A stretch of DNA of 64,000 nucleotides, taken from assembly GCA_020072565.1 (NCBI GenBank), contig JAIQGI010000039.1, positions 1-64,000 of the forward strand. Reading direction: 5' to 3'. The position numbers and the translations under genes were made by a program. The notes under the pieces are model-generated. The model saw only the letters and a list, made by a program, of their open reading frames with translations. It made no database searches and had not been told where the DNA came from. The first letter of the stretch is position 1. Each line of letters starts with the position of its first letter. Origin of the DNA: Terriglobia bacterium. Lineage in GTDB: Bacteria; Acidobacteriota; UBA6911. This document shows, in pieces, positions 14,412 to 54,878 of the stretch.

Positions 14412-14469
14412 TCGGTATCGGAATCGGCGCTTTTCAAAGATCATGGATCGATACCGATTCCGATTCCGA
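14412..14469. repeat. Hairpin built of GGTATC/GGAATC hexamers (left copy)
   Basis: TCGGTATCGGAATCGG (14412-14427) and CGATACCGATTCCGATTCCG (from 14449) are inverted relative to each other around a CGCTTTTCAAAGATCATGGAT loop region. The same organisation recurs at 16228-16307, so the two copies bracket the selenoprotein gene. Confidence 0.65.
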
Positions 14470-14611: not shown

Positions 14612-16054
14612 ATGCGACGAGGCATGCTGTTTATTGCGGCCGGTGGAATCGTCGCCGCCGCGCTCGCACAGACCGCGGTGCGCGATCAGATCCTGCGCGG
14701 GACGTCTTTGTGGGAGCAGCGGCTTTCCAGGAGCGCGATTGCCGCGTTTGAGCAGGCGGCGCGGGATCCGTCGGCCGCAGCCGAGGCTCACGAAGCGCTC
14801 GGCCGCATTTACGTGTTCAAGGGCTGGCAGCAGGAAGGCGCATTCCCCGGCTGGCACGACCAGCCGTCCCACCGCGAGCGTGCAATAGCTGAACTGAAGG
14901 CGGCGCTCGCCGCCGATGCGGATCGTGCGTCCGCAAAGGAGGCTCTCCGCCTCGCAGAAAGCTTTGCGGCAGCGGATAAAGTTGATCCACTGCCTCCCCG
15001 CGCAGAAATCCAAGCGCTCGACGCGAAGATCGACTCGTTTCGCGAGCCGGGGACGACGGTCGGTGACCTGATGGCCGCTATCGAAGCCCGGACGAAGGCT
15101 CAGGCCGATCCGGCGCCATACTTCACCGGCGCCCAGATATTGATCGATCGCGGCGAGTACGACCGGGCGGTCGCACTGGCGGAGCGCGGCGCGAAGGCGT
15201 CGGACCGGTTCATCGACGAGAACCTCGGTGCATATCAGATGCCGGGCAAATCCCGCGGATCATACGCGCGCGGGCAGGCTGCCGCACTCGACCTGGCCGG
15301 CTGGGCGCTGTTTCTGAAGAAGGACTATGCGGCGGCCGCGGCCAGGCTTGGAGAAGCCGAGCGGTTGTTGCAGGGCCAGGATTTCACGAATGAATTCCAT
15401 CTTGCAGAGCTGGCCAACGCTACGAATGCACCCGAGCGGGCGCGCGGATTTTACTTGAACGCGCTGTCGCTGACGGGAGGGCAGCCTCAGCTGCGCCAGA
15501 GGGCAACCCAGGCGTTAGCGGCAATCGCCGCAAAGGAGGCCGGCCCAGGCGGCTTCGATGCGTGGCTCGCGGCCGAATTGGCCGGACGCCGCGAGGAGCG
15601 CCGTGCGGCCGCGCTCAGGAGCCTCATTGACCGTCGTCTGCCCAAACTGGCGCTCACGTCGATCGACGGCCGTCCATACGACGCCTCGAGCCTGCAAGGC
15701 AAAGTCCTGCTGTTGAATTTCTTCGCCTCGTGGTGAGGGGGATGTCGTGCGGAGTTGCCGCACCTGAAAACAGCCTACGAGAAATATCGGAACGACCCTG
15801 GAGTGGTGTTCCTGCTGGTGAGCGTTGATGAAGACGGCAAACGGCTGCAGCGCTACCTGGATGAAGCAAAATTCCCATTTCCGGTTGCGCGCCTCCCGTT
15901 CGAGCGGGCCGCCCGCCTGATCGGAATCGACAATGTCCCGGCAACCTTCTACGTCGACCGAGACGGTTTCGTCCGTTACCAGGCGGTCGGCTCCGAATCG
16001 CACGGCGATTCGCCCCTCCGCGTCACCTGGTACATCGACCAGCTCAAACGCTGA
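14612..16054 (+). CDS. Candidate selenoprotein: exported TPR-thioredoxin (TlpA/ResA-like) with UxxC redox motif
   Basis: From the ATG at 14612 (after GGGGTAGGAAA) the product has a signal peptide (MLFIAAGGIVAAALAQ), a helical TPR-like region of roughly 320 residues (EAHEALGRIYVFKGWQQEGA, FLKKDYAAAAARLGEAERLL), then a redoxin domain: LPKLALTSIDGRPYDASSLQ, KVLLLNFFASW. A TGA (15734-15736, residue 375) stands where the first redox cysteine belongs. The same frame continues GGCRAELPHLKTAYEKYRND, VVFLLVSVDEDGKRL and the cis-proline loop IDNVPATFYVDRDG to a normal stop at 16054. A 6 bp stem with G-U in its loop follows the TGA at SECIS distance. Read through with selenocysteine the protein is 480 residues. 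The alternative is a nonsense mutation of a Cys codon, which would have to hit this one codon while everything else stayed intact. Confidence 0.82.
15734..15763 (+). promoter_or_regulatory. In-frame UGA and bacterial SECIS-like hairpin
   Basis: UGA at 15734-15736 is followed by a perfect six-pair stem, GTGCGG (15747-15752) with CCGCAC (15758-15763), closing the five-base loop AGTTG. The loop has the G-U dinucleotide at 15754-15755, 17 bases after the UGA, inside the spacing known for bacterial SECIS elements bound by SelB. The hairpin lies within the coding sequence, as in bacteria. Confidence 0.7.
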
Positions 16055-16400
16055 GGCGGATTGGTTTGGCCGCTATGATTTAAGGCAATGCGATCACGAA
16101 ACCGCGAAACAGGTGCGAACCGAGAAATCCGAACACCCGTCGTTCACATGTGATCGACCACGGCTAGAAACCGTGGCTTTGGCCTGCCCCGCAAAGCGGG
16201 GCGAAAAACGCAGGACCTCTTGCATCCATCGGAATCGGTATCGGTATCGGCCTTTTGAAAAAGTGATTTATCGATTTCCATACCGATCCCGATACCGATA
16301 CCGATTCAGAAAAACAACGGCACGCCGGAACGGCTTAGCCTGTCAGGGTCGCACGGCCAGAGGCCGTCCGGGTTTAGCTATTACTAAATCGATTTAACAA
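16055..16400. repeat. Intergenic with second GGTATC/GGAATC hairpin at 16228-16307
   Basis: No gene is seen. ATCGGAATCGGTATCGG (from 16228) is inverted against CCGATACCGATACCGATTC (ending 16307) around CCTTTTGAAAAAGTG. Its arms and the CTTTT loop flank match the copy at 14412-14469. Confidence 0.65.
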
Positions 16401-46367: not shown

Positions 46368-47943
46368 ATGGCCATAGTCTCAGCAGAGACGTCCAATGCA
46401 CACGAAAGCCGCTGGACCTCTGGCCCGGCGCTCGTACTTTACGTCGCCGCAGCTGCGCTTGCCCTGCAACTGCTGACCGCCTTTCGCTACGGCATCTTTC
46501 GCGACGAACTCTACTACCTCGCCTGCGCTGAACACCTCGACTGGGGATATGTTGACCATCCGCCGCTCACGCCCCTTCTCGCGTTCCTAGAACGTCACAT
46601 CGGTGGAGAATCGCTGCTCTCAATCCGTTTTCTGCCGGCCGCAGCCTTTGCCGTTACCGTGTGGCTTGCCGGGCTTATTGCACGTCAGCTTGGCGGCGGA
46701 CGGTTCGCTCAGTTGATTGCTGTACTGGCGATTCTGCTCGCCCCGACATATCTGCTGTTTTTTCACCTGATGACAGTCAACGCATTCGAGCCACCCCTTT
46801 GGATGGCGGCGGCCTACATTGTGATACGAGTGATCCAAACGGGGAATCAGAAGCTCTGGTTGTGGTTCGGCCTCATTGCCGGCATCGGCATCGAGAACAA
46901 GTATGGCATGCTCTTTTTCGGTTGCGGCATAGCCGTTGGGCTGTTGCTGACGCGCACGCGCAGTGCTTTCCGTCGACCGTGGATCTGGGCGGGTTGTGCA
47001 ATCGCCCTGGCGATATGGCTGCCAAACCTCGTCTGGGAATTCCGCCGCCACTGGCCCTTCTGGAACTCATGCACAATGTTCGCGCCAGCGGACGTGATGT
47101 GCAGTTGGGCCCCGTGGCTTTCTTTGCTCAGCAAGCGTTTTTCCTGCTACCAGTCAGTCTGCCGATTTGGCTCGCAGGGCTGTGGTGGTTCTTCTTCGGA
47201 CGCGAGCGAGGATCAGGCATTCGGGGCCGTTACGCCGCACTCGGCTGGACGTTTGTTGCCGTATACCTGCTGTTCTACTTTCTGCACGGAAAGGTTTACT
47301 ATCTGACGCCGATCTATCCCATGCTGTTCGCCGCCGGCGGCGTCGCCCTGGAGAGATGGCTCGCTTACCGCGCACCGGTTGGTTGAAGCCTGCGTACCTG
47401 GCCGTGCTGGTCGCTTTTGGAGTACTGTTTGTACCGCTCACCCTGCCGGTGCTTACTCCCGAGGGTTTCATCGCCTACGTGAAAGCGTTACACATTCCCA
47501 TGCCGGAAGTTGAGCACCAACGGATGGGCCCGCTGGGTCAGCAGGTTTACGCCGACATGTTCGGTTGGGAGGACATCACTCGTGAGACGGCGCGTGCCTA
47601 CTACAGCTTGCCGGACGACGTGCGTGCCAAGACCGCCATTACGGCCGCGTCGTTCGGCGAGGCCGGAGCCGTCGACTTTTTCGGCCCGAAATACGGATTG
47701 CCCAAAGCAATCAGCGGTCACCAGACATACTGGTACTGGGGTCCACGCCAGTTTACCGGCGAGAGCGCCCTCATGCTCGGCGAAAGGCCGCAAAGGGTGC
47801 GCGAGCTCTGCGAGAATCCCGTGGTCGTCGGCCACGTCGGCCATCAGTATGCACGGGGAGACGAAAACTTCGACATCTACTGGTGCCGCCCCATGCGCCT
47901 CAACCTGCAAAAGGGCTGGCCGCTCGCAAAGCACTGGGATTAG
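46368..47943 (+). pseudogene. PMT/ArnT-like membrane glycosyltransferase (GT83-type), two frameshifts
   Basis: Three frames together give one ~525-residue protein. The first, from 46368 (TGGAGG five bases before), reads LYVAAAALALQLLTAFRYGI, FRDELYYLACAEHLDWGYVD and HPPLTPLLAFLERHIGG, the catalytic acidic loop of PMT-like enzymes, up to EFRRHWPF near 47062. The text then continues in another frame, LELMHNVRASGRDVQLGPVA, to LERWLAYRAPVG at 47386, and finally in the third as LKPAYLAVLVAFGVLFVPLT to the stop at 47943. Both shifts are of one base, so assembly error is possible. An alternative start is 46356. Confidence 0.75.
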
Positions 47944-54671: not shown

Positions 54672-54878
54672 TGGCGAAGGAGACGGAAGGAAGGTCGGCG
54701 CCCTCCTCTTGCTTTCGGAATCCTGGATCCGTTGACAACAAATCGTTTTTCACTCCGACTGGAGGTGATGATAAGATCGTGATCGAACCAGTCCGGCTAG
54801 CCTGATCAGCGAAAAGCGGTCGCTTCCCGAACCGCCTGCCGGGCCTTCTCAAATCGGGACCCAAACGGGAAGGTGGGA

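Follow-up and report, generated by a model that had tools for sequence, protein, structure and literature searches.

Bacterial selenoproteins with a UxxC active site have been catalogued and include Redoxin (PF08534), thiol-disulfide isomerase-like (cd02966) and Prx-like thiol:disulfide oxidoreductase (PF00578) proteins (PMC13188914, Table 1). Anaerobes such as Thermodesulfobacteriota, Synergistota and Clostridia are described as having the most selenoproteins, and the change from selenocysteine (Sec) to cysteine has been called rare (PMC13188914). The phylum Acidobacteria was credited with four selenoproteins in 2006 (PMC1794560), and one acidobacterium has been credited with three (PMC12013277). 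Neither "TPR" nor "tetratricopeptide" occurs in the 2026 review, which does not mention the Acidobacteria (PMC13188914), and no report of a TPR-TlpA selenoprotein was found in the open-access literature.

The gene described here lies in a 64,000-nucleotide stretch of acidobacterial DNA, the whole of which is referred to as the window. With a probability of roughly 0.93, it encodes an exported TPR-thioredoxin selenoprotein in which the UGA at codon 375 is read as Sec by way of a SECIS element, and which was probably acquired horizontally. The features of the locus are collected in Table 1.

Table 1. Features of the predicted selenoprotein locus, in window coordinates
Feature	Position	Strand	Remarks
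Palindromic repeat element	14412..14469	.	5' of gene
Shine-Dalgarno-like GGGGGTAGGAAA	14600..14611	+	5' of ATG 14612; predicted from sequence
Predicted selenoprotein gene	14612..16054	+	480 residues, position 375 being Sec; ends at TGA 16052-16054
Probable export signal MRRGMLFIAAGGIVAAALAQ	14612..14671	+	predicted; helix 10-35 in model
Helical TPR-like region, residues ~21-334	14672..15613	+	TPR_16 weak; all-helical AlphaFold model
AhpC-TSA/Redoxin domain, ResA/CcmG/TlpA-like, residues ~340-464	15629..16003	+	Pfam E=2e-17
UGA, predicted to be recoded as selenocysteine (U375)	15734..15736	+	first position of UxxC
Bacterial SECIS-type hairpin GUGCGG-AGUUG-CCGCAC	15747..15763	+	6-bp stem, 5-nt loop
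Palindromic element, second copy	16228..16310	.	3' of gene

Gene and protein architecture

Codon 375 (W-TGA-G-G-C) stands where the first cysteine of WCxxC belongs and is the sole in-frame stop before the terminal TGA, with 105 sense codons after it. The ratio of dN to dS is approximately 0.2 on both sides of this codon (3' of it, dN is 0.19-0.26 and dS is 0.88-1.25), and the frame beyond the TGA is under purifying selection, with a constraint equal to that of the 5' part. The original prediction had described a redoxin frame with a single TGA at the first cysteine of W-C-x-x-C that stays open and homologous to its natural stop, and had expected standard annotation to yield two truncated genes. 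All of this is borne out, and ORF calling produces exactly such a split.

Export of the protein is probable, judging from an N-terminus that resembles a signal peptide. Within the helical region, TPR_16 matches residues 29-67 (E=2e-4, 22.2 bits, with a Pfam cut-off of 32.7), and the AlphaFold model (mean pLDDT 83, pTM 0.65) consists of mostly confident helices over residues 10-334, followed by a thioredoxin fold. In Foldseek comparisons, the thioredoxin domain resembles ResA and DsbE/CcmG, with TM-scores by target of about 0.9. The alignment conserves W374, C/U375 and C378, with E381, P443 and T445 invariant, and the domain thus combines the features of the ResA/TlpA class: a thioredoxin fold, the W-C/U-x-x-C motif, a nearby glutamate and a proline at the cis-Pro place. 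Scores for the curated subfamilies are under the cut-off both for ResA (73 of 170 bits) and for DsbE (48.6 of 123 bits), and the domain is therefore considered a relative, and no member, of either subfamily.

Homologues in other genomes

No other copy was detected among the 38 genomes of the host's class (the host itself and 37 others). Eleven homologues were found in other acidobacterial groups, seven in one family (f51, 56-70% identity) and four in a second (f32, 42-47%). Codon 375 is TGA in nine of the 11 and TGC in two; in f51 the split is five to two, and all four f32 sequences have TGA, so that with the window gene included the 12 orthologues comprise 10 with TGA and two with TGC. In both TGC orthologues, one uninterrupted gene runs through this codon. 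The expectation that residue 375 would be either Cys or Sec in relatives, with no random stops elsewhere in their frames, is upheld by the alignment. That nine homologues in other assemblies have the identical TGA speaks against an error of sequencing.

Two of the 11 homologues, one with Cys (L020) and one with TGA (L021), are apparently the same as genes detected in GTDB contigs titled Acidobacteria. A wider search covering 80 redoxin loci, which used a Cys-containing pattern among others and is thereby biased towards Cys, gave Cys at the active-site position in 79 and TGA in one. In a tree of the 12 proteins, the Sec and Cys forms are intermixed within f51, and most inner branches are unresolved. 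Three further genomes carrying the TGA form were tested, and tRNA-Sec was found in each. The genome that contains the Cys gene L020 has tRNA-Sec too, and the Cys there is therefore not explained by the loss of that tRNA.

The SECIS hairpin

Published criteria for bacterial SECIS elements specify a loop of 3-9 nt, a stem of 4-16 bp, a G at loop position 1 or 2, a spacing of 16-37 nt and an MFE at or below -7.5 (PMC13188914). The window hairpin falls within all of these ranges, with a 5-nt loop (AGUUG), six stem pairs, 16 nt between the TGA and the loop, which is the lower limit, and an MFE of -13.0 when 48 nt are folded or -9.0 when only the hairpin is. The stem begins 10 nt after the TGA and GU forms loop positions 2-3, confirming the geometry first noted for this hairpin (six pairs and a five-base G-U loop, 10 bases after the TGA).

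Synonymous codons were resampled with the codon usage of the host genome in 3000 trials per gene, and an equally stable legal hairpin was scored. Resamples as stable as the native hairpin numbered 19 of 3000 for the window gene, 14, 14 and 48 for three TGA orthologues, and 5 and 20 for two TGA paralogues; for two Cys genes, the corresponding numbers were 819 and all 3000. The hairpin is thus more stable than its synonymous resamples in six of six TGA genes (range 5-48 of 3000), whereas neither Cys gene shows such an excess, and it is no by-product of the encoded peptide.

The U of the loop is the first base of a leucine codon, and so demands a TTR codon. TTR accounts for 12.9% of leucine codons in the host genome, yet each of the nine aligned TGA sequences with leucine at this place uses it, although these sequences are kin and the counts are not independent; the Cys genes use CTG at this codon. 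Every TGA homologue has the same hairpin, with the loop AGUUR. In the f32 TGA genes, one stem pair has changed from U-A to G-U, a double change that preserves pairing, and since most stem positions are invariant, covariation support amounts to this single pair. The Cys homologues have the loop AGCUG and a stem that is truncated or absent.

Related redoxin genes

In the host genome, eight of the 22 AhpC/TSA matches (window gene included) hold exactly one TGA, and none holds TAA or TAG. The TGA is located in all eight at the place of the catalytic cysteine (W-C-x-x-C type motif) or of the peroxidatic cysteine (Prx-type). Four paralogues are built like the window gene, in that a long N-terminal region precedes the redoxin domain, and three of the four are TPR-containing or TPR-like. 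Their open frames extend over 687-704 residues on contigs C72, C100 and C26 (L189, L188 and L190) and over 579 residues on C21 (L191), and each has one TGA at the active-site cysteine and a SECIS-like hairpin. A Pfam scan detects TPRs above cut-off in the paralogues on C100 and C26, and none in that on C21. Three peroxiredoxin-type genes have a TGA at the peroxidatic cysteine position (L149 on C20, L192 on C8 and L193 on C11). The fusion to a TPR-like region had been predicted and called unusual; the region itself is supported by the weak TPR_16 match, the all-helical model and the TPRs of the paralogues, but the fusion is not a one-off, given four paralogues of similar layout in the same genome.

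In a further seven acidobacterial genomes, one TGA is present in 23 of 61 AhpC/TSA matches (counted per match), and TAA or TAG in none. Six of these genomes (G001, G004, G010, G437, G451 and G188) contain two to seven one-TGA redoxin genes each, and the seventh (G003) contains none. As a prediction from sequence, the assignment of the window gene as a selenoprotein, and as one of an expanded set, is well supported.

Contig C20 also carries a further candidate selenoprotein, with a UTYC motif and its TGA at 47368 (L145:6289-7542). This sequence has a DUF1223-like region (under Pfam's cut-off), a dockerin domain and a partial match to the Omp28-related selenoprotein NF045500 that is likewise under its cut-off.

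Selenocysteine machinery and stop-codon use

The host was expected to encode Sec machinery, and does so. Its genome contains a tRNA-Sec with the anticodon UCA (73.5 bits) and two copies each of selA (541 and 540 bits), selB (387 and 283 bits) and selD (396 and 353 bits), all over the curated cut-offs. One copy each of selA, selD and selB is clustered on contig C19 (227772-232814; locus L015 7743-12947), and neither Rfam nor ARAGORN detected a second, unusual tRNA-Sec near this cluster. The selD of the cluster is fused to a carboxymuconolactone-decarboxylase/AhpD-like domain. The host genome, placed in the Acidobacteriota by its relatives, is a draft of 7.46 Mb in 135 contigs, with an estimated contamination of 3.8%, and the duplicate sel genes could partly reflect mixing of genomes in the assembly.

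TGA is the commonest stop codon: of 1212 long ORFs in 0.91 Mb of the host genome, 693 end at TGA as their first stop, and there is thus no general reassignment of TGA in this host. A coding-potential scan for TGA read-through junctions (0.91 Mb) lacked the specificity needed for a census, with many junctions for TAA and TAG as well.

Genomic setting and origin

The GC content of the gene is approximately 65%, versus approximately 50-57% at its edges. The homologue-bearing contigs have 64-68% GC and the window contig has 58%, like the other contigs of the host; the closest homologues, with up to 70% identity, are found in another class. The GC contrast of the gene and its absence from the rest of its own class suggest horizontal transfer; the probable donor is a GC-rich acidobacterium outside that class, and the SECIS would have come along with the gene. 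The 12-protein tree leaves the donor unplaced, and no conserved neighbour genes are shared across the nine loci compared. An imperfect palindromic element (TCGGTATCGG...CCGATTCCGA) brackets the gene, with one other cluster only in 1.64 Mb of loci; a link between these elements and transfer or mobility is a lead only.

Mis-binning of the window contig was considered as well; its GC content (58%, versus 64-68%) and repeats of 84% identity common to other host contigs favour its place in the host genome. Its tetranucleotide correlation is 0.82-0.90 with larger host pieces and 0.44-0.68 with the homologue-bearing contigs, a weak contrast given that the latter are short and that host pieces of the same size reach only 0.55-0.63. 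A match to the Rfam int-alpA RNA at window positions 54790-54859 (40.3 bits) may indicate an integrated element.

Alternative explanations

A single base change would suffice to turn TGC or TGT into TGA, or to have either misread as such, and TGC homologues exist, which would fit a pseudogene or a sequencing or assembly error. However, nine homologues from other assemblies have the same TGA and the same hairpin, one TGA is found in eight of 22 host redoxin genes, selection is purifying past the TGA and the TTR leucine codon of the loop is retained, making an error or pseudogene highly improbable. Frames that continue past a TGA, as seen in several genes, are also what a general reassignment of this codon in the host (to Trp, Gly or Cys, for example) would produce. 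This can be given practically no weight, given the frequency of TGA as first stop (693 of 1212 long ORFs), the restriction of in-frame TGAs in redoxin genes to the catalytic cysteine codon and the complete Sec system.

The locus could also encode two proteins, with the TGA terminating a free TPR protein and a second gene starting from TTG 15755, in exact agreement with standard ORF calling. The second ORF would nevertheless begin within the redoxin domain, past the active site, and both Cys orthologues are continuous over this point; separate proteins are hardly credible. In bacteria, release factor 2 and Sec insertion compete for the UGA, and the model shows the helical part as a domain of its own, so a TGA with a dual role, partly read through and partly serving as a stop that releases a free TPR protein at low selenium, is conceivable. 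This would refine the selenoprotein reading and is not exclusive of it, but there is no specific sign of selection for a short product and the refinement is unlikely.

Proposed mechanism

The prediction of a selenoprotein with a UxxC active site is supported by the site, the hairpin, the machinery and the exchange of Sec and Cys. Following established bacterial Sec biology, a ribosome that meets the UGA at codon 375 would not terminate; the hairpin 10 nt 3' of it would bind SelB carrying GTP and Sec-tRNA(UCA), and Sec would be inserted, yielding the 480-residue protein. After export, Sec375 would act as the attacking nucleophile of U-x-x-C and Cys378 would resolve, as in ResA/TlpA chemistry. 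By analogy, the protein may act as a thiol:disulfide reductase of the ResA/CcmG/TlpA type, with the reducing direction likewise presumed, and TPR biology suggests that the N-terminal helical repeats probably dock a partner or substrate.

Comparison with described systems

A single acidobacterial genome contains eight one-TGA redoxin-family genes and a further candidate, and gene callers would split such TGA-containing redoxin genes. The occurrence of Sec/Cys pairs in one family permits a direct test of the contribution of Sec to a TlpA-type reductase, and the same pairs allow the Sec-to-Cys change to be tested. It is tentatively proposed, at somewhat less than even odds, that exported TPR-TlpA selenoproteins form an expanded group in the Acidobacteriota, most of it undescribed, with repeated Sec/Cys swaps and cross-class moves together with the SECIS, possibly as one unit between palindromic elements, and that their hosts have two SelA/SelB/SelD sets in parallel.

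ResA, CcmG (DsbE) and TlpA share with the window protein a common fold, the W-C-x-x-C frame, a glutamate three residues past the second cysteine and a proline (Pro443) at the cis-Pro place. Unlike them, the window protein has Sec for the first cysteine and a helical domain of approximately 310 residues in front. The chaperedoxin CnoX likewise combines thioredoxin and TPR domains. However, CnoX is cytoplasmic and has its thioredoxin domain first and the TPR domain second, whereas the window protein has the TPR-like region first, a probable export signal and a predicted Sec. The ResA-like domain of the selenoprotein model NF041054 (WAxxUGC_long) aligns to window residues 335-454, but the model is not matched (53.8 bits versus a cut-off of 300, with only its positions 76-194 of 354 aligned), and its name carries a different motif (UGC).

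The catalogued UxxC redoxin selenoproteins are of the same domain type, with Sec first in UxxC and a bacterial SECIS directly downstream. Their entries are defined by the redoxin domain alone, to which the window protein adds a TPR-like region. UxxC redoxins of this kind are already known; no TPR-TlpA form was found in the open-access literature, and the window protein is taken as a new architecture, a TPR-TlpA variant of the known UxxC redoxin selenoproteins.
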